This document shows, piece after piece, positions 48,169 through 59,127 of a stretch of DNA of 64,000 bases. Location of the stretch: NCBI RefSeq assembly GCF_023955655.1, contig NZ_JAMXHT010000002.1, forward strand, positions 248,001-312,000, in the 5' to 3' direction. Every line of letters begins with the position of its first letter. The first letter of the stretch is position 1. The notes under the pieces were generated by a model that had not been told where the DNA came from, searched no databases, and worked only from the letters and a program-made list of their open reading frames with translations. The position numbers and the translations under genes were made by a program. This DNA comes from Ralstonia soli (lineage in GTDB: Bacteria > Pseudomonadota > Gammaproteobacteria > Burkholderiales > Burkholderiaceae).

Positions 48169-49122
48169 ATGTCACTGCATTCGCAATTGGAAGTGGATGA
48201 ACGGACCAATCTGACGAACAACAACCGCTTTGAGCTGTTGCTGTTCCGCCTGGGGGAATCTGCGCGATCCAACCAGCGCGAGATGTTCGGCATCAACGTG
48301 TTCAAGGTGCGCGAGATCATGGTCATGCCGCCCGTGACGCACGTGGCGGATGCCGGTGCCCATATCCTGGGTGCGGTCAACGTGCGCGGCCAGATCATCC
48401 CCGTGATTGACCTGGCCAGCGTGATCGGCACCAAGAACGGCAATGCAAACATCCTGCTGATTACCGAGTACGCGCGCTCCACGCAAGGCTTTGCGGTGGA
48501 AGAGGTGGACGAGATCGTGCGGCTGGAATGGAGCCAGGTCTTCCCGGCCGAAGCGAGCGTGGGCAGCAGCAACATCACGAGCCTCGCGCGCCTGGACGGC
48601 AACGCCGACAACTCGCGCCTGGCGCAGGTGATCGACGTCGAGCAGATCCTGGTGGATGTGTTCCCGACCCGCCGCACCGATCTGGCCCCCGACAACGACG
48701 AGCGCCCGATCAAGCTGGCGCCGGGCGCCAAGCTGCTGGTGGCGGACGATTCGGGCCTGGCCCGTTCTCTGATCGCCAACGGCCTGGAGGCGATGGGCAC
48801 GCCGTACGTGATGACCAAGAGCGGCCAGGAAGCGTGGGACACGCTGCAGAACATCGCGCGCGACGCCGCGCGAGAAGGCAAGACCGTGCGCGACAAGATC
48901 GCGCTCGTGCTGACCGATCTGGAAATGCCCGAGATGGACGGCTTCACGCTCACGCGCAAAATCAAGACCGAGCCTGCATTCCAGTCGATTCCCGTGGTGA
49001 TCCACTCGTCGCTGTCGGGCTCGGCCAATGAGGACCATGTGCGCCGCGTGGGTGCCAATGGCTACGTCGCCAAGTTCGAGGCCAACGAACTGGCGCAGGC
49101 GATCGCGTCGGCGCTGGGCTGA
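48169..49122 (+). CDS. cheV: chemotaxis protein CheV
   Basis: A 317-residue coupling protein. Residues 15-165 are a CheW-like domain (MFGINVFKVREIM, AVNVRGQIIPVIDLA) that links receptors to the CheA kinase; residues 185-317 are a receiver with the phosphoacceptor in LVLTDLEMPEMDG. CheV tunes receptor arrays, with phosphorylation serving in adaptation. The gene stands alone here, away from other che genes. The ATG has a GGGGGA site. Confidence 0.93.
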   Translation: MSLHSQLEVDERTNLTNNNRFELLLFRLGESARSNQREMFGINVFKVREIMVMPPVTHVADAGAHILGAVNVRGQIIPVIDLASVIGTKNGNANILLITEYARSTQGFAVEEVDEIVRLEWSQVFPAEASVGSSNITSLARLDGNADNSRLAQVIDVEQILVDVFPTRRTDLAPDNDERPIKLAPGAKLLVADDSGLARSLIANGLEAMGTPYVMTKSGQEAWDTLQNIARDAAREGKTVRDKIALVLTDLEMPEMDGFTLTRKIKTEPAFQSIPVVIHSSLSGSANEDHVRRVGANGYVAKFEANELAQAIASALG

Positions 49123-49189
49123 TCGCGCCGCATTCATACCCAGGTTAGGGCGGTGTGCAATGCGCCGCCCGGTTTGACGCGGGCCGGCT

Positions 49190-49705
49190 TTATTTGCGGG
49201 CGTCGCGATCATTGCCGCCCAGTGGGTCGACCACGATCATGGTGCGGTCCAGCACGCCGTTGTCATCGAACAGCGCGTTGAAATGCGCTTGTTGATACCC
49301 CGCAACGTACATCCGGTATGACCAGGCTTCCCGCTTCATCAGCGGGTAGTACTGCGTCGGCTCGCGCGGCATGCCGAAGCGCTCGGCCACATCGTGCTTG
49401 GTCCACACGCCGGGGCGCGCTTCGTAGATTTCCTTTTCCGTCAGCATCTGCCGGTAGTGGGTGAGCTTGCCCTGCCCGTCAAAATCGGCGGCATACACCT
49501 CGTGCCCCAGCGGTTGCCTGGAGTAGATCCAGCGGTGTGTGCCATCGGCCAGCTGATACGTCTCGGTCGGTGCGCCAAAGGTTTCGCGTACGGCACTTTC
49601 TGGCTGGCCGATCAACTTTTGCGCGGTCTGCAGGGGGGTGAGCGAGGCACAGGCGCACAGCGCGAGTGCCGTCACGCTGATCCATCGGCTGAGTCGGGCG
49701 GGCAT
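49190..49705 (-). CDS. predicted lipoprotein of unknown function
   Basis: A 171-residue protein. The signal region SVTALALCACAS contains a lipobox, so it is probably lipid-anchored. The mature part has SmpA/OmlA-like text near the start (QKLIGQPESAVRETFGAPTET) and a second such unit (WTKHDVAERFGMPREPTQYY), that is, two short repeats of the SmpA/BLIP-like kind. The role is unknown. The ATG at 49705 has GGAG eight bases upstream. Confidence 0.75.
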   Translation of the reverse strand: MPARLSRWISVTALALCACASLTPLQTAQKLIGQPESAVRETFGAPTETYQLADGTHRWIYSRQPLGHEVYAADFDGQGKLTHYRQMLTEKEIYEARPGVWTKHDVAERFGMPREPTQYYPLMKREAWSYRMYVAGYQQAHFNALFDDNGVLDRTMIVVDPLGGNDRDARK

Positions 49706-49815
49706 GGCGTTCTCCGGGAGGATGCGGGGATTGATCTTCAGGATGGTAAACGCCTTGGCCGCTCGAAATATTCCATCCGTCCAAACTGGCGCCTCGCCGC
49801 ACAACATTGGTGCGA

Positions 49816-50904
49816 TCAAGCGGGCTTGTTCGCCGACGCTGCGATGACACGGTGCACGAACCGCAGCTTGTCGATCACGGGCGGGGCCAGCGTGAACGGG
49901 TAACCGTCGGGCTGCCCGAGGCTGCGATTGAGGCTGTTCAGCACATAGGTGAGCGGAAACCATCGGCTCATCAGGTTGTTGAAGCTGGCTTCTTCCACGG
50001 GGGTCTGGTCGGTCAGTTCGGGCTCCAGCGGGTGGTCGGGTAGCAGGGCCAGGCCGTATGACACAGCAGTGTCCAGCGCGTCGACCATGTGCAGGTAGTG
50101 CGCCCAGGTTTCGGCCCAGTCTTCCCAGGGGTGCATGGAGGCGTAGGCACTGATGTAGTGCTGCGCCCAGTCTGCGGGTGGCCCATTGTCATAGTGGGCT
50201 TGGAGGGCATCGGCATAGCTTGCGCGCTCGTCGCCGAAGCGCAGGCGGAAAGCCGCTTCCCACATGGGTCTGCCGGCAATCAGGCGGTCGAAGAAGTAGT
50301 GCCCGGACTCGTGGCGGAAGTGGCCGAGCAGCGTGCGATAGGGCTCGCCCAGTTCAGTGCGCGCCTTCTCGCGTGCGGCGTCATCGGCCTCGGCAATGTT
50401 GAGCGTGATGCGGCCATGGTGGTGGCCGGTCATCACGGGGTCGCCCTCTTCCTGGTTTTCCAGAAACGCAAACTCCAACCCTGTCTCGGGGTTTTCCTGC
50501 CGTGATTCCAACGGCAAGCCCAGCGTCATGAGCGTATAGAGCAACCGGCGCTTGGCCACCTCCAGCCGGTACCAGTAGAAGCGATTTTCCGGCACCGTCA
50601 GGTCGGGGATGGTGGCCGTGAACTGGCAGGCCCGGCACAGTGCGTCGGGCGAATCCGCCGGGATCATCCAGTTGCAGACGTTTTCGACTGCGTAGTTGTG
50701 GCATTGGCGGTAGAGCCGGCCTTGCGCATCGGGGTGCAGGCTGCGCCAGAGGTTGCCTCCTGCTTCCGGCGCGGCGTCGACGGGCTCGAAGGCGCTGATC
50801 TCGCCCACGTCGGGCAAGTAGCCGAGCAGGGCGTCGCAGCGCTCGCACAAGACGTTTTCAAAGAAGACGAGTTGCTGGCAACGGTTGCAGTGGAACGTTT
50901 TCAT
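49816..50904 (-). CDS. zinc-ribbon plus zincin-like putative metallopeptidase (DUF2248/COG4307 type)
   Basis: A 362-residue cytoplasmic protein. The N-terminus is a zinc ribbon-like segment (CNRCQQL, CERCDAL), with more cysteines at about 68-92. The active-site motif HFRHESGHYFFD at about 195-206 supplies HExxH, and EDWAETWAHYLH at about 262 may carry the third ligand. This family occurs together with DUF2126, ATP-grasp/alpha-E and transglutaminase genes, and those genes lie divergently next to it. It is the predicted protease of that system; the substrate is unknown. Confidence 0.85.
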   Translation of the reverse strand: MKTFHCNRCQQLVFFENVLCERCDALLGYLPDVGEISAFEPVDAAPEAGGNLWRSLHPDAQGRLYRQCHNYAVENVCNWMIPADSPDALCRACQFTATIPDLTVPENRFYWYRLEVAKRRLLYTLMTLGLPLESRQENPETGLEFAFLENQEEGDPVMTGHHHGRITLNIAEADDAAREKARTELGEPYRTLLGHFRHESGHYFFDRLIAGRPMWEAAFRLRFGDERASYADALQAHYDNGPPADWAQHYISAYASMHPWEDWAETWAHYLHMVDALDTAVSYGLALLPDHPLEPELTDQTPVEEASFNNLMSRWFPLTYVLNSLNRSLGQPDGYPFTLAPPVIDKLRFVHRVIAASANKPA

Positions 50905-51138
50905 GGTGATCCCAGGGCCGGGGCTGGCATGTTGGCGCGCGCTCCACCAAGATGGTGGAAGGCGGCGAGGTGCTCAGCAAGCGTTGTACCGCATCGGCCT
51001 GTCATACGCACGGCCTTGCACGGCTGGCACGATGGCAGGAGCCCCAAGGAGGGGTGTGCCGCGCAAACGGCATGAACCTTGCTTTGACCGCACGCCGGCA
51101 CTGCGCCGGCAAGCCATAAGAGCCATTGAGGAGCCCGT

Positions 51139-54100
51139 GTGTCGATCCGAGTCGCGTTGAATCACGTTACCCACTATCGCTATGACCGGCTCGTCGAGCT
51201 GTCGCCCCAGGTGGTTCGCCTGCGGCCGGCGCCGCACTGCCGCACGCCGATCCATTCGTATTCCATGCGGGTGGAACCGGCCGAGCATTTCATCAACTGG
51301 CAGCAGGACGCGTTTGCCAATTACCAGGCCCGGCTGGTGTTTCCGAACAAGACGCGCGAGTTCAAGGTGACCATCGACCTGGTTGCCGAGATGGCGGTCT
51401 ATAACCCGTTCGATTTCTTCCTGACGCCCGAAGCCGAGTCGTTCCCCTTCACCTACGCCGATGACCTGGCTGCCGAGCTGGCGCCCTACCTCGTCAAACG
51501 CGAGATGACACCGCGCTTTGCCGCGTTTGTCGCCAGCATTGACCGCACGCCGCGCCGCACGATCGACTTTCTGGTGGGCCTGAACCAGCGCCTGCAGCAG
51601 GACATCCGCTACCTGATCCGCATGGAGCCCGGTGTGCAGACGCCGGAAGAGACGCTGTCGCTCGGCTCCGGCTCATGCCGTGACTCGGGCTGGCTGATGG
51701 TGCAGACGCTGCGGCAGTTGGGGTTGGCCGCGCGCTTTGTATCCGGTTACCTGCTGCAGCTCACGCCCGACGTGAAAGCCGTCGATGGCCCCAGCGGCAC
51801 CGAGGTGGACTTCACCGACCTGCATGCCTGGTGCGAGGTCTATCTGCCGGGCGCCGGTTGGATCGGCTTTGACCCGACCTCGGGCCTGCTGGCGGGCGAG
51901 GGGCACATCCCCGTGGCCTGCACGCCGGAGCCCGGCAGCGCGGCGCCCATCTCGGGTGCGGTGGACGAGTGCGAGGTGGAGTTCGAGCACACGATGTCGA
52001 TCACGCGCGTGCTGGAGGCCCCGCGCGTGACCAAGCCCTACACCGAAGCGCACTGGGAAGACGTCGTTCGCATGGGGGCACAGGTGGATGCCGACCTCGA
52101 GGCCATGGACGTGCGCCTGACCATGGGCGGCGAGCCAACCTTCGTGGCTGTGAGCGACCGCGATGCCGCCGAGTGGAACACCGACGCCCTTGGCCCTACC
52201 AAGCGCAGCTACGCCGTCGGGCTGATGGACAAACTGCGCCAGCGTTACGGCGCCAACGGCTTCCTGCATATCGGGCAGGGCAAGTGGTACCCCGGCGAGC
52301 AACTGCCGCGCTGGGCGCTCTCGCTCTACTGGCGCACCGACGGCCAGCCCTGCTGGAGTAATCCAACGCTGTTTGCCGACGAGCGCGAGCCCGGCCGCTA
52401 CACCTCCGCCGATGCACAGCGCTTTCTGCACCATCTGGCGCGCAAGCTGTCGGTGGACGAACAATGCATCCAGCCCGGCTACGAGGACACGTGGTACTAC
52501 CTCTGGCGCGAGCGGCGTCTGCCAGTGAACGTCGACCCGTTCGATTCGCGGCTCGACGATGAACTGGAGCGCGTGCGCCTGCGCCGTGTGTTCGACGCCG
52601 GCCTGTCTGCCGTGACGGGCTACGTGCTGCCGCTCGCGCGCAATGACGATGCCGCGCTGGCTGGCCCCCGCTGGGTGACGGGCCAGTGGTTCTTCCGCGA
52701 CGAGCGCATGTATCTGATTCCCGGTGATTCGCCGATGGGCTATCGCCTGCCGCTCGACTCACTGCCGTGGGTCAGCAAGAGCGACTACCCGTATCAGCAC
52801 GCGCACGATCCGTTTGGCCCGAGCGCGCCGCTGCGCACGGCGACGGAGTTGCGCATGCAATACCAGGGCGACTCTGCCGGCGCTGCAGTGGGAACGAAAG
52901 CCGTATCGGCCGCGCTCGGCACCGGCTCGCGGGCCGATGCTCGCCTGCCTGGGCAGAACGAATCCGCCTCGTGGGTCCACCGCACCGCGGTGTGCGTGGA
53001 AGCGCGCGACCCCGCCCGCGCCGCCGGCCCCAAGGTCGAGAACGACACCTTCGGCTCCGGCCATAGTCAGCTGCATGTCTTCATGCCGCCGCTGACGGCG
53101 CTGGACGACTACCTCGACCTGCTGGCCGCCGTGGAGGCCACCGCCGCCGAACTGCGCGTGCAGATCGTCATCGAGGGCTATCCGCCGCCGCGCGACCCGC
53201 GCCTGAAGCTGCTGCAGGTGACCCCCGACCCCGGCGTGATCGAGGTCAACATCCACCCCGCCAGTAACTGGGAGCAGTTGGTCGACCATACGGAATACCT
53301 GTACGAATCCGCCCATCAGTCGTACCTGAGCACCGAGAAGTTCATGCTCGACGGGCGCCACACCGGCACCGGCGGCGGCAACCACTTCGTGCTGGGCGGG
53401 GCCACGCCGGCCGACAGCCCGTTCCTGCGCCGGCCCGATTTGCTGGCGAGCCTGATTGCGTACTGGCACAACCATCCGTCTCTGTCGTATCTGTTCTCGG
53501 GGCTGTTCATCGGCCCGACCAGCCAGGCGCCGCGCGTGGACGAAGCGCGCAACGACCAGGTGTACGAGCTGGAGATCGCGTTTGCCGAGCTGCAGCACCA
53601 GCTTGACCGGCTGGGTGCGGCCAATGTCCAGCCCTGGCTGATCGACCGCATCCTGCGCAACATCCTGATCGACGTCACCGGCAACACGCACCGCGCCGAG
53701 TTCTGTATCGACAAGCTCTATTCGCCCGACGGCCCCACGGGGCGCCTGGGCCTGCTGGAGCTGCGCGGCTTTGAGATGCCGCCGCACGCGCGCATGAGCC
53801 TGGTGCAGCAACTGCTGCTGCGCGCGCTGGTCGCCCGCTTCTGGAAGACGCCGTACACCACGCGCCTCACGCGCTGGGGCACCGAGCTGCACGATCGGTT
53901 TTTGCTCGGCACCTTCGCGCAGATGGATTTCGATGATGTGCTCGCCGATCTGCGTGAGGCGGGCTACGCCTTCGAGCGCCATTGGTTTGCGCCGCATTTC
54001 TCGTTCCGCTTCCCGCTGGTGGGCGAGCTGCATACGGGCGGGATTTCGCTCACGCTCAGCGGCGCGCTGGAACCCTGGCACGTGATGGGCGAGGAGGGCG

Positions 54101-54549
54101 CGCAGGGCGGCACGGTGCGCTATGTCGATTCCTCGGTCGAGCGGCTGGAGGTGCGCGTGCTGGGCCTGAACGAGAACCGGCACGTGGTGACCGTCAACGG
54201 CATTCCCTTGCCATTGCAACCAACCGGCCGCGTGAGCGAGCAGGTGGCGGGTGTGCGGTTCCGGGCGTGGTCGCAGGCGTCGGCCTTGCACCCCACCATT
54301 GGTGTGCACGCGCCGCTGACGTTCGATTTGGCAGACACTTGGACTGGCCGCTCGCTGGGCGGTTGCCAGTATCATGTGGCGCATCCGGGTGGGCGCAATT
54401 ACCAGACGTTTCCCGTCAACGCTTACGAGGCGGAAAGCCGCCGGCGCGCGCGCTTCTTCACCACCGGGCACACGCCCGGGCCGCTGGAGGTGCGAGCGCC
54501 CGAGCGCAGTCTGGAGTTTCCGTTTACGCTGGATTTGCGCCGCTACTAA
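51139..54549 (+). CDS. transglutaminase-like protein fused to DUF2126
   Basis: A 1136-residue protein. The first 290 residues form a bacterial transglutaminase domain: the beta-rich N-terminal part (LNHVTHYRYDRLVELSPQVV), then the catalytic triad C180 (SGSCRDSGW), H229 (DLHAWCEV) and D245 (IGFDPTSG). From about 300 to the end is DUF2126 (COG4196), which starts VRLTMGGEPTFVAVSDRD. The fold may act as a peptidase or amidase/ligase on peptide bonds; activity is unproven. GTG start with GAGGAG just upstream. First gene of a three-gene operon, divergent from the zincin gene. Confidence 0.9.
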   Translation: MSIRVALNHVTHYRYDRLVELSPQVVRLRPAPHCRTPIHSYSMRVEPAEHFINWQQDAFANYQARLVFPNKTREFKVTIDLVAEMAVYNPFDFFLTPEAESFPFTYADDLAAELAPYLVKREMTPRFAAFVASIDRTPRRTIDFLVGLNQRLQQDIRYLIRMEPGVQTPEETLSLGSGSCRDSGWLMVQTLRQLGLAARFVSGYLLQLTPDVKAVDGPSGTEVDFTDLHAWCEVYLPGAGWIGFDPTSGLLAGEGHIPVACTPEPGSAAPISGAVDECEVEFEHTMSITRVLEAPRVTKPYTEAHWEDVVRMGAQVDADLEAMDVRLTMGGEPTFVAVSDRDAAEWNTDALGPTKRSYAVGLMDKLRQRYGANGFLHIGQGKWYPGEQLPRWALSLYWRTDGQPCWSNPTLFADEREPGRYTSADAQRFLHHLARKLSVDEQCIQPGYEDTWYYLWRERRLPVNVDPFDSRLDDELERVRLRRVFDAGLSAVTGYVLPLARNDDAALAGPRWVTGQWFFRDERMYLIPGDSPMGYRLPLDSLPWVSKSDYPYQHAHDPFGPSAPLRTATELRMQYQGDSAGAAVGTKAVSAALGTGSRADARLPGQNESASWVHRTAVCVEARDPARAAGPKVENDTFGSGHSQLHVFMPPLTALDDYLDLLAAVEATAAELRVQIVIEGYPPPRDPRLKLLQVTPDPGVIEVNIHPASNWEQLVDHTEYLYESAHQSYLSTEKFMLDGRHTGTGGGNHFVLGGATPADSPFLRRPDLLASLIAYWHNHPSLSYLFSGLFIGPTSQAPRVDEARNDQVYELEIAFAELQHQLDRLGAANVQPWLIDRILRNILIDVTGNTHRAEFCIDKLYSPDGPTGRLGLLELRGFEMPPHARMSLVQQLLLRALVARFWKTPYTTRLTRWGTELHDRFLLGTFAQMDFDDVLADLREAGYAFERHWFAPHFSFRFPLVGELHTGGISLTLSGALEPWHVMGEEGAQGGTVRYVDSSVERLEVRVLGLNENRHVVTVNGIPLPLQPTGRVSEQVAGVRFRAWSQASALHPTIGVHAPLTFDLADTWTGRSLGGCQYHVAHPGGRNYQTFPVNAYEAESRRRARFFTTGHTPGPLEVRAPERSLEFPFTLDLRRY

Positions 54550-54570
54550 TCTCTTCCAGCCAAGCCGATC

Positions 54571-57159
54571 TTGTCTTACCAGTCGACCCTGCCGCTTGAT
54601 CCGCAAGAGCCCGCTGCCGCCCACGCGGATGTGCTGGCCCTCCTTCGCATGCTGCCGGTGCGGGAGGGCCACTGGGATGAACTACACGACGCCACGGGCG
54701 CATTGCGTGAACCCTGGCGGCAGTTCTTCGAGCACGTACGCGAGGGCGGCCTAGTCGGGCTGGAGCAGGCCCGTGCCTCCGTCGCCCAGCAGGTGCGCGA
54801 CAACGACATCAGCTACAACGTCTACGCCGACAAGGGCGAGCCGCGCCCGTGGGCGCTCGACCTGCTGCCTTTCCTCATCGACCCTGCCGACTGGGCCGTG
54901 ATCGAGCAGGGCGTGATGCAGCGCGCGCGGCTGCTCAACGCCATCGTGGCGGATACCTACGGCCCGCAGTCGTTGCTGGCGCAGGGGCTGATGCCGCCGG
55001 CGCTGGTGTTCGGCCATCCGGGCTATCTGCGCGCGGTGCGCGGCTTCACGCCCCCGGGCGGGCAGTACCTGCAGATCGTGGCGGTGGACCTGACCCGTGG
55101 GCCCGACGGTAACTGGGTGGTCGTCGGCCATCGCACCGAAGCCCCATCGGGCCTGGGCTATGCGCTGGAGAACCGGTTGATCGTCTCCGGCCTGTTTGCC
55201 GATGCCTTTCGCGAGTTGCGCGCGACACGCCTCGCGCCAACGTATTCGCAGTTGATCAGCACACTGGCTGCTGCCGCGCGCACCACGATGTCTGATGACG
55301 AGGCGGGAGAATCACCGCACATCGCGCTGCTCACGCCGGGCCCTTTTAGCGAGACGTATTTCGAGCACGCCTTCCTGGCGCGCTATCTGGGCATGACGCT
55401 GGTCGAGGGCAAGGACTTGACGGTGCGCGGCGACAAGCTCTATCTGAAGACGTTCAACGGCCTGGAACGCGTGCACGTGGTGCTGCGCCGCCTGGACGAC
55501 GTCTTCTGCGATCCGGTGGAGCTGCGCGCGGACTCCACCATCGGCGTGCCGGGGCTGCTGCAGGTGATGCGTGCGGGCAATGTGATGGTGTCGAACGTGC
55601 CCGGCGCGGGGTTTGTCGAATCGCCGGCCATGCTGGGTTTTTTGCCGGGGATTGCCCAGGCGCTGCTGGGCGAGCCGCTGGCGCTGCCCAGCGTGCCGAC
55701 ATGGTGGTGCGGCGAGGCCCTCGCCCGCGAAGAAGCGCAGGCCAGCCTGTCCGAGGGGCTGCTGCTGCCGACCTGGCCCGGAAACCACCCCGACGGCCCG
55801 CCCGGCATGGCGGGTGGGCCGCAGCCCCTGGCCGACTGGCGCGCGCGCATTGATTGCGCGCCGGACACCTTCACCGTCCAGGCGCCGTTGCCGTATTCCT
55901 GCACGCCGCGCTACGAGGCCGGCATGCTTGCTGGGCGGCCCTCGGTGCTGCGCGTGTTTGCAATTGCGGACATGGCAGGCGGCTGGCATGTCATGCCCGG
56001 CGGATTCACGCGCCTGGCGGCCGATCGACAGGCCTCTGCATCCATGCAGATGGGCGGTAGCAGCGTCGACACCTGGGTGTTGTCGAACCAGCCACAGCCT
56101 GCTGCGCCGTTTACGTTGTTGCCCTCGCCGATGCGGCCGGCGGACCTCGCGCGCAAGCACCGCACAGTGTCGAGCCGCGCGGCGGAGAACCTGTTCTGGT
56201 CCGGCCGCTATGGCGAGCGCGCGGAAAACGGCGTGCGGCTATGCCGCCTCATCCTCGGCTCGCTAGAGGCCAACGATGCCGACACCATGTTCGGCACGTT
56301 GACGGAACTGGCGGCCGAATGCGGGCTGATCTTCAGCGCCGATGTGTTCGCGCGCAGCAGCCCAAGCGCGTTTGAGCGGGCGCTCGTCGCGGGCTTGAGC
56401 GAGCAGTCGGGCACCGCGGGCGTGGGTCAATGCCTGGCCGCGCAGGCGCGTGCCTCGGGCGAGGTGCGCGGGCGCCTGTCGAATGATCATTGGAAAACCA
56501 TCCTTGCCGCGCGCAACGACTTTCGTGACGGGCTGGCCAACCTGAGCGCCGAAGGCGCGCCCGATCGCGTTGCGCTGGTCGACCAGCTCGAATATCTGGC
56601 GACGCAACTGTGCGCCATCAGCGGTGCCCAGGGCGACCGCATGACACGTGACGAGGCCTGGCGCCTGTTGTTTGCCGGCCGCCATATCGAGCGCGTGTGG
56701 GCCATGACCACGTTCCTGCGCGTGATTGCCGAGCAGGGCAAGCTCGCTACTGCCGAGGGGTTTGATCTGCTGCTGCAGTTGTTCGACAGCACGCTCACGT
56801 ACCGGTCTTTGTATCCGGGGCGGCAGGAGGTGCCTGCGCTGCTGGACCTGCTCGTGGTCGAATCGACCAACCCACGTGGGTTGTATGGCGTGTATGACCG
56901 GCTGCGGACCAAGCTGGCGCAGATCGAGCGCGCCGCTGCGCCGATGCACGCCCAGCGCCGCCACCCCTTTGCCGACCTGATGCCCCCGGTGGAGACGCTC
57001 CCATCGCTGGAAGCGCTGTGCGAGACCGATGCCGACGGCCGCTACGCCAACCTCATCCGCCTGTGCGACACGCTGGTGGACTACGTGGCCGCCGCGTCCA
57101 ACGAGATCAGCGCGCGCTACTTCAGCCACGCCAGCACCCCAACCGCACAGGTGGCTTGA
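54571..57159 (+). CDS. circularly permuted ATP-grasp enzyme fused to an alpha-E domain
   Basis: An 862-residue protein from a TTG start (21 bases after the previous stop; no better start is visible nearby). Residues 1-480 are the permuted ATP-grasp part (COG2308/DUF404-407: NDISYNVYADKGEPRPWALDLLP and RLLNAIVADTYG). Residues about 530-862 are the alpha-E helical domain (COG2307/DUF403: SSRAAENLFWSGRYGERAEN, WRLLFAGRHIERVWAMTTFL). In many genomes these are separate genes; here they are fused. ATP-grasp enzymes of this kind are predicted to join amino acids or peptides through amide bonds. The substrate is unknown. Confidence 0.9.
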   Translation: MSYQSTLPLDPQEPAAAHADVLALLRMLPVREGHWDELHDATGALREPWRQFFEHVREGGLVGLEQARASVAQQVRDNDISYNVYADKGEPRPWALDLLPFLIDPADWAVIEQGVMQRARLLNAIVADTYGPQSLLAQGLMPPALVFGHPGYLRAVRGFTPPGGQYLQIVAVDLTRGPDGNWVVVGHRTEAPSGLGYALENRLIVSGLFADAFRELRATRLAPTYSQLISTLAAAARTTMSDDEAGESPHIALLTPGPFSETYFEHAFLARYLGMTLVEGKDLTVRGDKLYLKTFNGLERVHVVLRRLDDVFCDPVELRADSTIGVPGLLQVMRAGNVMVSNVPGAGFVESPAMLGFLPGIAQALLGEPLALPSVPTWWCGEALAREEAQASLSEGLLLPTWPGNHPDGPPGMAGGPQPLADWRARIDCAPDTFTVQAPLPYSCTPRYEAGMLAGRPSVLRVFAIADMAGGWHVMPGGFTRLAADRQASASMQMGGSSVDTWVLSNQPQPAAPFTLLPSPMRPADLARKHRTVSSRAAENLFWSGRYGERAENGVRLCRLILGSLEANDADTMFGTLTELAAECGLIFSADVFARSSPSAFERALVAGLSEQSGTAGVGQCLAAQARASGEVRGRLSNDHWKTILAARNDFRDGLANLSAEGAPDRVALVDQLEYLATQLCAISGAQGDRMTRDEAWRLLFAGRHIERVWAMTTFLRVIAEQGKLATAEGFDLLLQLFDSTLTYRSLYPGRQEVPALLDLLVVESTNPRGLYGVYDRLRTKLAQIERAAAPMHAQRRHPFADLMPPVETLPSLEALCETDADGRYANLIRLCDTLVDYVAAASNEISARYFSHASTPTAQVA

Positions 57160-58058
57160 TGCAAGCACGCGCCACGCTCCTGACGGTCTCGCACAGCACG
57201 GTCTATCACTACGCAACTGCGGTAGAAACGGCGCAGCATCTGGCGACCATCCGCCCGCGTGCCTGCCCGTGGCAAGAGATCGTCGCGCACGATGAGCAGA
57301 TCGATCCGTCACCCTCGTACCTGACCAGCCGTGTCGACGGCTTTGGCAACGACGTGCTGTATTTCTCGCTTGATGCCCCGCACGACAGCCTGCGCATGAC
57401 CAGCGAGACCACGGTGCGCTTGCTGCCGCGCTGGAACGACCTGGACCCAGCCGCCACGCCCGCGTGGGAGGTTGTGGCGCAGCGCCTGCGGTATCAGGCC
57501 GGCTCCATGTTCTATCCGGAAGCCGAGTTCTGTTTTGCCTCGCCCAACATCGCGCTGACCCCCGAACTGGAGCGCTATGCGCGAGAGAGTTTCGCTGCAG
57601 GCACGCCTGTGGTGGCCGGCGCCATCGACCTGATGCATCGCCTGCATGCCGACTTTGAATACGCCCCCACCGCAACCGCTTTCGATACGCCGGCCGCGCA
57701 AGCGTTTGAGCTGCGTCGGGGCGTCTGCCAGGACTTTGCCCAGGTGATGATCGGCTGCCTGCGCGCACTGGGATTGCCCGCCCGCTATGTGAGCGGCTAT
57801 CTGCGGACCGAGCCGCCGGCTGGGCAGCCCCGATTGATCGGGGCCGATGCCTCGCACGCGTGGGTGTCGGTGTTCTGCCCGCAAAGCGGTTGGGTGGATC
57901 TTGACCCGACCAACGACGTGCTGGCCGATCTGGACCACGTGACGCTCGCCATCGGACGCGATTACAGCGACGTTTCACTGCTGCGCGGCATGATCCTCGG
58001 CGGTGGCGAGCATCAGGTGGACGTGGCGGTCAGCGTAGGGGAAGTCACGGGCCTCTGA
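57159..58058 (+). CDS. transglutaminase-like protein, second copy
   Basis: A 299-residue protein that overlaps the previous stop by one base (TGATG). The N-terminal beta domain is followed by the core with C190 (RRGVCQDFAQ), H233 (ASHAWVSVF) and D249 (DLDPTND). This is the compact transglutaminase-like family found in the same operons as DUF2126 and alpha-E. It could cleave or transfer isopeptide links. Unlike the longer protein at 51139 it has no DUF2126 part. Confidence 0.9.
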   Translation: MQARATLLTVSHSTVYHYATAVETAQHLATIRPRACPWQEIVAHDEQIDPSPSYLTSRVDGFGNDVLYFSLDAPHDSLRMTSETTVRLLPRWNDLDPAATPAWEVVAQRLRYQAGSMFYPEAEFCFASPNIALTPELERYARESFAAGTPVVAGAIDLMHRLHADFEYAPTATAFDTPAAQAFELRRGVCQDFAQVMIGCLRALGLPARYVSGYLRTEPPAGQPRLIGADASHAWVSVFCPQSGWVDLDPTNDVLADLDHVTLAIGRDYSDVSLLRGMILGGGEHQVDVAVSVGEVTGL

Positions 58059-58091
58059 GGGGGCCGATTTGGTAGCACAGCAGGGAGCATC

Positions 58092-58370
58092 ATGAAAAAC
58101 GAAATCTCTTGGCAAGACCTGCCCGACCCGGCCGATGTATCGGGCGTTTTCGCTTTTGCCATGTCGTTCAACGGCTATGAAGAACTGGGCTCGTTTGAAG
58201 CCTGCACGAGTGCCGCGCGCGAACGCAGGCGCGCTTCGCTTGCCGACCTGCGCAACGAGCTGTTCTGCGCCGCGCGTGCATCGCGCCATGCCGGTTCAAC
58301 GGGCTACCTGGGGACGTACGAGGCGTTGCTTCCGCTTTTCCGGCATATGCTGGGTGCGCCTGGCAGGTGA
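58092..58370 (+). CDS. small protein of unknown function downstream of the transglutaminase operon
   Basis: A 92-residue frame starting 33 bases after the transglutaminase stop, with a good GGGAG site seven bases before the ATG. It is acidic to neutral, soluble and predicted helical after residue 20 (FAFAMSFNGYEELGSFEACTS, RRRASLADLRNELFCAARAS). No family is recognised. Position in the same transcript makes it a candidate partner or substrate of the peptide-modification genes. It could be unrelated. Confidence 0.6.
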   Translation: MKNEISWQDLPDPADVSGVFAFAMSFNGYEELGSFEACTSAARERRRASLADLRNELFCAARASRHAGSTGYLGTYEALLPLFRHMLGAPGR

Positions 58371-58482
58371 GCGATACAGCGCGGCTGTCATCGTTGCGTT
58401 GAAGGCCGAGCACGCAAACGCAGCGGCGCGCACGTGCTCAGATGGTGCGCGCGCATGGCCACGCACATCGACGCAGCCGGGC

Positions 58483-59127
58483 CTACAGGCCATTTTCCAC
58501 CATCTCCACCACGCGCAGTGCGATGGCGCCGGTCTGCTCCGGCGGGCGGCTGCGCAAGGGGCCGTCGATGATGAGCAGCGCGAGCCCATGCACCGCAGAC
58601 CATGCGAGGTATTCGGCACCGGGCCGGCGCTCGGCGGGTAGCACGCCGGCGGCGGTCATGCGATCCAGCGCGAGGCTCAGCAACTGGAACGGGTTCAATC
58701 CGCTGTCGCCGGCCTTGGCGGGGTCGGCGTCGTTTTCCACTTCATCGGGCACGGCAAAGGCGGTGCGGAACAGGCCCGTCTCCATTTGCGCAAAACGCAG
58801 GTAGCCGACCCCGATGGCACGCAGTGAAGCGCGTGCCCGTGCGTCTTCGGGCCCGGTCGGGTCGATGGCGTTCAGTTCGGCTTCCATCGCGCGCGCCAAC
58901 GCGGCGAGCGCTTCCGCCCGCACACCCTGCAGCAGATCCAGCCGGTTGGCGAAGTGGCGGTAAGCCGCATTCGGCACGACACCGGCACGGCGCGTGGCCT
59001 CGCGCAGCACGATGGCATCCGGCCCGCCTGCGCGCGCCAACTCAATGCCCGCGTCGAGCAGCGCGCGCCGCAGGTCGCCATGGCGATAGGTGGTACGCAC
59101 CGGCGGCCGGGGTGGTTCCTGGGTCAT
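58483..59127 (-). CDS. TetR-family transcriptional regulator
   Basis: A 214-residue repressor-type protein. The N-terminal helix-turn-helix reads RRALLDAGIELARAGGPDAI and TRRAGVVPNAAYRHFANRLDLLQGV, the form with a C-terminal domain of the TetR_C_13-like kind. It is divergent from the SnoaL-like gene. A 21-base inverted repeat at 59181-59201 in the shared upstream region is the probable operator. The ATG at 59127 starts the conserved part; the open frame upstream covers the operator. Confidence 0.88.
   Translation of the reverse strand: MTQEPPRPPVRTTYRHGDLRRALLDAGIELARAGGPDAIVLREATRRAGVVPNAAYRHFANRLDLLQGVRAEALAALARAMEAELNAIDPTGPEDARARASLRAIGVGYLRFAQMETGLFRTAFAVPDEVENDADPAKAGDSGLNPFQLLSLALDRMTAAGVLPAERRPGAEYLAWSAVHGLALLIIDGPLRSRPPEQTGAIALRVVEMVENGL

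Follow-up and report, generated by a model that had tools for sequence, protein, structure and literature searches.

Which product of a five-gene cluster in Ralstonia soli, if any, forms an amide bond? The cluster occupies positions 49816-58370 of the analysed stretch (the window, 64,000 nucleotides of contig C12 in a genome of 5.7 Mb) and encodes a metallopeptidase, two transglutaminases, one of which is joined to a DUF2126 domain, a circularly permuted ATP-grasp domain fused to an alpha-E domain, and a small protein. Operons combining permuted ATP-grasp, alpha-E and transglutaminase genes, often together with Anbu, were predicted in 2009 by Iyer et al. (as cited in PMC6376114, PMC5666114 and PMC3597751), and the locus is the DUF2126 module of this predicted amide-modification system. 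The ATP-grasp domain of the fusion is, as judged from its sequence, a conserved pseudo-ATP-grasp that has lost its catalytic residues and is kept under purifying selection. The reading that we favor, with a probability of roughly 0.6, is that of an amide-forming and transglutaminase system of nitrogen limitation, in which ligation falls to DUF2126 and a distant ATP-grasp protein, with the fusion as a partner that has no catalytic role. The five genes are as follows.

49816-50904, reverse strand: metallopeptidase with a zinc ribbon and HExxH motif (zincin); PF10005 and PF15887 (expectation value, E, 5.9e-108), HESGH present; divergent from the other genes.
51139-54549, forward strand: transglutaminase-DUF2126 protein (TG-DUF2126), its DUF2126 half a putative amidoligase; GTG start; PF08379, PF01841 and PF09899 (E 0); Cys180, His229 and Asp245.
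54571-57159, forward strand: predicted pseudo-ATP-grasp/alpha-E fusion; TTG start; PF14403 at residues 100-483 (E 1.1e-130), circularly permuted; PF04168 at residues 534-851.
57159-58058, forward strand: second transglutaminase (TG2), 299 amino acids; Cys143, His186 and Asp202; its ATG overlaps the TGA of the fusion (TGATG).
58092-58370, forward strand: small protein of 92 amino acids; conserved open reading frame, a lineage-limited companion that ends the studied region.

Domains were called with Pfam profiles as matches above the cut-offs. A first-pass annotation had placed the zincin, TG-DUF2126, the ATP-grasp/alpha-E fusion and TG2 at one locus and had assigned the set to the predicted amidoligase/transglutaminase type; Pfam bears out all four proteins and agrees with that type, with permuted ATP-grasp, alpha-E and transglutaminase domains co-occurring at the locus and both the HExxH motif and the zinc ribbon of Peptidase_Mx present in the zincin. 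The start/stop overlap that it described is found at the junction of the fusion and TG2, where the two genes share one base, and 21 base pairs (bp) separate TG-DUF2126 from the fusion. The transglutaminase triads, which it had called intact, are also kept across our sample of loci, as is the HExxH motif of the zincin: alignment columns for Cys, His and Asp of the triad are conserved in 84/84 TG-DUF2126 proteins and in 94/94 proteins of the TG2 kind (transglutaminases at least 42% identical to TG2 of the window), and the HExxH motif in 34/34 zincins. Against two relatives of the same genus, the five genes all have ratios of nonsynonymous to synonymous substitution rates (dN/dS) of 0.04-0.11, a sign of purifying selection.

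The fused ATP-grasp domain and its intact paralogue

The genome carries two permuted ATP-grasps, the fused one in the window and an unfused one on contig C23, which is accompanied by a separate alpha-E protein, a transglutaminase and a weak Anbu-like PF00227 match (G000:C23:195857-196396; 22.5 bits against a cut-off of 22.4). The window operon shares its domains with the predicted operons, while the unfused module and the Anbu-like gene of the same genome lie on another contig; it differs from them in its fused and degenerate ATP-grasp, its TG-DUF2126 and its zincin, and in having no Anbu gene, none of the three PF00227 matches of the genome being located on C12. A further PF00227 match is found at G000:C26:61910-62464 (43 bits), and a stronger one on C1.

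We aligned 95 fused and 44 unfused homologues, and residues that are invariant in the unfused form proved to be gone from the fused form. The totals given below add six plasmid and 20 phylum-sample fused sequences and five unfused ones, for 121 fused versus 49 unfused. The Mg- and ATP-binding residues of glutathione synthetase (GshB) underlie the assignment of motifs. We take the motifs of the unfused form, KETHGAGG and EDNLRVPS, as its ATP and Mg residues because they resemble KPLDGMGG and EVNVTSPT of GshB from the same genome, in the opposite order that is expected for a permuted domain. The corresponding positions of the window fusion are listed here.

55126-55134, forward strand: degenerate metal motif Gly-His-Arg (residues 186-188); Glu-Asp-Asn in the intact paralogue.
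55765-55767, forward strand: Leu399 replacing the ATP-grasp lysine, which is present in the intact paralogue; the glycine loop after this position is also lost.
56065-56067, forward strand: Val499 replacing an invariant lysine, again present in the intact paralogue.

The window protein lacks the metal Glu, the metal Asn and both lysines, as well as the glycine loop. Across the homologues, the metal Glu is found in 49/49 unfused versus 1/121 fused sequences and the metal Asn in 49/49 versus 0/121; both ligands are missing from 120/121 fused proteins versus 0/49 unfused ones. The lysine before the glycine loop (Lys401) is kept in 63 of the 121 fused proteins (two gaps) versus 48 of 49 unfused, and the second lysine (Lys500) in 20 of 121 (two gaps) versus 48 of 49, the remaining unfused sequence being in each case a piece that ends earlier.

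These replacements bear directly on the model of the first-pass annotation, in which the fusion is the active ligase: it makes an amide-linked peptide or attaches it, and the transglutaminases and the zincin attach and remove that peptide. The gene set, order and overlap are as that model describes, a Yersinia Anbu operon encodes a related ATP-grasp that releases phosphate from ATP (PMC6376114), and both lysines are retained in ten of the 121 fused homologues. However, in the window fusion Glu, Asp and Asn are replaced by Gly, His and Arg and the two lysines by Leu and Val, the glycine loop is missing, and either metal ligand survives in only one of the 121. Loss of nucleotide-binding residues on structural modelling had been named beforehand as an observation that would overturn that model, and alignment to the intact paralogue together with the GshB motif comparison points to such a loss. 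We consider a working fused ligase highly improbable; on present evidence the first reading appears right on the parts and wrong on the part that forms the bond.

The fusion itself has dN/dS values of 0.071 and 0.107 against the two same-genus relatives. The domain could have been re-purposed rather than silenced, with the near-invariant Trp379, Gly381, Glu317 and Glu350 and the kept pocket residues forming a new, non-canonical active or substrate site. Residues specific to the fused form are indeed conserved (Trp379 and Gly381 in 119 of 119 readable sequences, Glu317 and Glu350 in 120 of 121), and Asp282, Asp314, Arg461 and Asp500 are conserved in common between the fused and unfused forms. 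Their conservation could just as well come from a part in the fold or in contacts with another protein, however, and we regard a new site of this kind as unlikely.

The predicted ATP-grasp fold of the fusion is supported by sequence matches to PF14403 and to PDB 3n6x. The latter, a putative glutathionylspermidine synthase of 474 residues, is the sole solved structure whose sequence matches the fusion at a threshold of E 0.01 (E 1.8e-67, fusion residues 63-505); in the alignment it differs by carrying EDN and K...GGYG, as the unfused proteins do, and the alpha-E part of the fusion is unmatched. In a 167-sequence tree, a single clade with a support of 1.0 unites the 48 unfused proteins; the midpoint root falls inside the fused set, and we claim only the split between fused and unfused forms. 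The fused set spans one member of the Acidobacteriota (Granulicella) and Alpha- and Gammaproteobacteria. Inactive fused forms were reportedly noted already, in all probability, by Iyer et al. in 2009, and the Pfam text for PF04174 reportedly describes inactive members, many of them in fusion with alpha-E; if so, the inactivity of the fused form had already been predicted. Among the literature matches listed, none describes, in the portions covered, a fused form that has lost its active site or a survey of sigma-54 sites at the operon across the order. The complete catalytic loss predicted for the window protein, and its near-universality in the fused form, would be new here. Proteins annotated as 'circularly permuted type 2 ATP-grasp protein' include intact as well as degenerate ones, and an Enterobacter plasmid record gives this name to both.

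In order to compare the distribution of the two forms we called them by the length of the open frame (at least 800 amino acids for the fused form, less for the unfused), counting a contig-edge fragment (G141) as fused; the calls agreed with twenty fetched fused sequences except G173, which has no alpha-E match. Among 61 genomes (R. soli and relatives), DUF2126 occurs in 21, the fused form in 17 and the unfused form in 39, and the unfused form is present in 17/17 genomes with the fused form and in 21/21 with DUF2126. In a sample of 140 genomes from the phylum the unfused form occurs in 79, the fused form in 42 and DUF2126 in 43, and the unfused form again accompanies 42/42 and 43/43 (hypergeometric 4.6e-14 and 1.7e-14, uncorrected for relatedness). 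DUF2126 is found without the fused form in four genomes of each sample (in one, G109, it lies at a contig edge), and in four such relatives (L033, L040, L042, L043) it is encoded 1-2.5 kb from the unfused ATP-grasp on the same strand. Since the fused form and DUF2126 occur only alongside the unfused form, the dependence points towards the intact ATP-grasp. This exceptionless co-occurrence in two samples is new here, as are the joint absence and the deletion remnants within the genus that are described below. With DUF2126 in nearly a third of the phylum sample the system is widespread, and the covered portions of the literature report no established substrate for it.

Promoter-like sites and nitrogen limitation

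The intergenic stretch between the two arms of the locus contains the following sites.

51068-51083, forward strand: sigma-54-like -24/-12 site CGGCATGAACCTTGCT, one mismatch, GG and GC intact, 71 bp before TG-DUF2126.
50976-50991, reverse strand: sigma-54-like site CGGTACAACGCTTGCT, facing the zincin, three mismatches.
50943-50959, no strand assigned: NtrC-like palindrome TCCACCAAGATGGTGGA, two mismatches to TGCACY-N5-RGTGCA, which we take to be the NtrC consensus; weak evidence.

By sequence, the operon has what marks a member of a sigma-54 regulon, a -24/-12 element that precedes it and is conserved in place. We counted sigma-54-like sites with at most two mismatches within 300 bp upstream. 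Such a site precedes TG-DUF2126 in 56 of 84 loci, always within 160 bp (3.1 expected from shuffles, 2.6 from the background rate), and is present before 29 of 44 unfused ATP-grasps (1.6 expected), 1 of 92 fusions (2.6 expected) and 11 of 108 other transglutaminases (3.9 expected); four of these 11 are transglutaminases 24-25% identical to TG2 whose genes immediately precede TG-DUF2126 in the same orientation. A module gene lies directly upstream on the same strand in 0/56 TG-DUF2126 loci with a site versus 13/28 without one; where a module gene directly precedes TG-DUF2126, the promoter would lie further up. The 56 sites comprise 31 distinct 16-mers, therefore close descent alone is an insufficient explanation, although relatives were left uncollapsed.

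The zincin has a sigma-54-like site of its own, with at most two mismatches, in 20 of 34 loci, and one with three mismatches in the window and in three same-genus loci. The reverse-strand control for TG-DUF2126 gave 24 of 84 loci, of which 17 have a divergent zincin and seven have no zincin; because the divergent zincin may account for the site in those 17, this set is not a clean negative control. That sigma-54-like sites are conserved on each of the two arms appears to be a new observation. NtrC-like palindromes upstream show a modest enrichment: with at most two mismatches they occur at 16 of 56 loci (3.05 expected), mostly in Paraburkholderia and Caballeronia, and at 10 of 29 unfused ones (1.33 expected); in L031, L034 and L035, the same-genus loci that were tested, the palindrome falls below the two-mismatch threshold. 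No sigma-70-like promoters were found in 49000-58700 (0.9 expected), and Rfam returned nothing in the window at gathering scores and nothing in the intergenic stretch at E 1.

Two related operons have been studied in other bacteria. The Burkholderia cenocepacia genes I35_5080-83 (BCAM1233-1236) likewise encode an ATP-grasp (DUF404/407), a DUF403 protein, a transglutaminase and a large transglutaminase protein, and their transcription, which was measured, is dependent on sigma-54 and NtrC, with table values of -6.0 to -9.4 in the ntrC mutant (PMC5491218). They differ from the window operon in that DUF404/407 and DUF403 are listed as separate genes there and are fused here, and in that control is only predicted here. 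Pseudomonas putida PP_2685-2688 is alike in encoding a proteasome-like beta subunit, a transglutaminase and a permuted ATP-grasp and in responding to nitrogen limitation, whereas neither DUF2126 nor the fused form is named in the covered portions of its two reports (PMC7801951, PMC8050072). PP_2686-2688 are up 11- to 37-fold under nitrogen limitation (PMC7801951), and a PP_2688 promoter reporter showed 3.7-fold induction (PMC8050072). Additionally, a marine metagenome study links these domains to urea metabolism domains (PMC3597751). The window operon is probably expressed under nitrogen limitation from the predicted sigma-54 promoters. Nitrogen limitation is a condition in which to look for its activity, and dependence on the pseudoenzyme is testable.

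Candidate ligases and a proposed role of the fusion

With the fusion set aside as an enzyme, the likely chemistry shifts to DUF2126 and the distant intact ATP-grasp, either or both of which would carry out ATP-dependent amide formation. The fusion would not use ATP and would act as a non-catalytic partner; its simplest roles would be to pair with the active paralogue or to hold the substrate for DUF2126 by means of the fold and the alpha-E domain that it retains. Amide transfer or cleavage by the transglutaminases would come next, with the zincin trimming or recycling the product. The DUF2126 region is a member of PF09899 (E 0) with 68% mean column identity over 48 sequences, and is putatively a permuted COOH-NH2 (glutamine synthetase-like) ligase with a glutamine synthetase-like fold. 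The best local hhalign pairing, which falls short of significance, sets its PGVIEVNIHPA against the DSMIEIS stretch of the GCS2 carboxylate-amine ligases.

The operon could also be chiefly degradative, scavenging nitrogen by means of transglutaminase-like proteins and a zincin that cut peptides or amides, with a DUF2126 that makes no bond. Control of related operons by nitrogen limitation (PMC5491218, PMC7801951, PMC8050072), the intact catalytic residues of two transglutaminase-like proteins and a peptidase, and a Pfam name that calls DUF2126 merely a 'putative amidoligase' are all consistent with this. The presence of the unfused ATP-grasp in every one of the 43 phylum-sample genomes with DUF2126 argues instead for an ATP-using, bond-forming step somewhere, and we think a chiefly degradative operon decidedly unlikely.

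Several observations weigh against our preferred reading of an amide-forming system with a non-catalytic fusion. The role of DUF2126 as a ligase is suggested by its Pfam name ('putative amidoligase'); its comparison with GCS2, with the alignment also doubled to allow for permutation, is not significant (E 0.077, probability below 1%), a solved-structure profile search with TG-DUF2126 gave two matches to the transglutaminase part and two at chance level (E 1.2), and three of three DUF2126 regions match no second Pfam family at E 10. In 64 kb, chance alone would yield 2.4 sigma-54 matches with one mismatch, therefore only the place and conservation of the site carry weight. Upstream of the intact ATP-grasp of R. 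soli, the best sigma-54-like match within 300 bp has four mismatches and a two-mismatch one lies at -399, so that co-regulation of the two modules is at most hypothetical here. NtrC-like palindromes with at most three mismatches accompany 28 of 56 loci against 20.0 expected, a weak excess. In P. putida PP_2685 rises only 1.1- to 4.8-fold, with little change in two of three strains (PMC7801951), and the main text of a nitrogen-starvation study of P. phymatum, in the portion covered, makes no mention of these domains (PMC5748707). A fused-size open frame occurs without a DUF2126 match in three of the 140 genomes (G084, G173, G183), and common descent and genome size may account for some of the nesting, which was counted with related genomes uncollapsed. 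Finally, pull-downs found no specific complex among proteins of the Yersinia Anbu operon (PMC6376114), and this calls for caution with any complex model.

A more specific version of the non-catalytic partner goes further. The fusion might be a dedicated regulatory or adaptor subunit that re-targets the intact ATP-grasp/alpha-E/Anbu machine, whose genes lie elsewhere, onto the substrates of DUF2126 in nitrogen starvation, as part of a two-ligase, pseudoenzyme-gated tagging of proteins or metabolites, with the DUF2126 block gained and lost atop the Anbu operon. We put this forward only as a speculative and rather unlikely elaboration.

Gene order, gain and loss, and the small protein

Freely varying neighbours had also been named in the first pass as an observation that would refute its reading. 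The order TG-DUF2126, fusion, transglutaminase is strongly conserved across relatives: among 95 fusions, 76 have TG-DUF2126 no more than 400 bp upstream, eight have it at a larger gap, in five it is cut off by a contig edge and in six it is absent, and a transglutaminase follows directly in 89 and with a gap in five, and is absent in one. The operon as a whole, however, is patchy in its own genus, with DUF2126 in 5 of 16 genomes. We read the slot between bamE and tetR in five of the 11 genus genomes without the operon and found fusion and TG2 matches in 0/5; TG-DUF2126, fusion and TG2 are jointly absent there, apart from a DUF2126 remnant in two. These two (G008 and G009) retain the zincin and a remnant of 65 amino acids (L194:10609-12027, L196:10995-12416), therefore loss of the operon is indicated in both, and the zincin can persist without the remaining genes. 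In G010 and G014 bamE is joined to tetR, and in G004 the slot is filled by about 2.4 kb of other DNA.

The module is also found on plasmids. An IncFII plasmid of a clinical Enterobacter roggenkampii (L151, NZ_CP116251.1 3951-30377) carries an unfused ATP-grasp, alpha-E, TG-DUF2126, the fused form and a transglutaminase in a row on one strand, flanked on both sides by insertion sequences (IS6/IS26 and IS110 elements), and plasmid records of Azospirillum, Caballeronia and Sinorhizobium also match the fusion. In a Halomonas megaplasmid record (L155) the zincin, TG-DUF2126, second transglutaminase and unfused ATP-grasp are fragmented, through decay or sequencing error, and the fused gene is a single open frame. 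Of 50,697 records in a phage collection four match the fusion (H101-H104), two of them from human fecal samples; these may be bacterial contamination. None of the five proteins of the locus matched a PADLOC defence profile at E 0.01, and for this reason a role in anti-phage defence was dropped.

The region delimited in the first pass ends at 58370, which is the end of the frame for 92 amino acids, and the frame itself had gone unmentioned. It looks like a real gene: the protein is 91-97% identical in same-genus loci, with dN/dS of 0.04-0.09, and same-genus copies also stand at the end of the operon (L007:1498-1770, L008:1477-1785). It has no Pfam match. It occurs in six of 61 relatives, is missing from G011 despite the operon there, and in the more distant G043 and G059 its homologue is located away from DUF2126, which together rule it out as a universal substrate. 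In 29 loci the module has a RidA/YjgF-like gene nearby, at a median distance of about 60 bp (e.g. L125:12563-13093).

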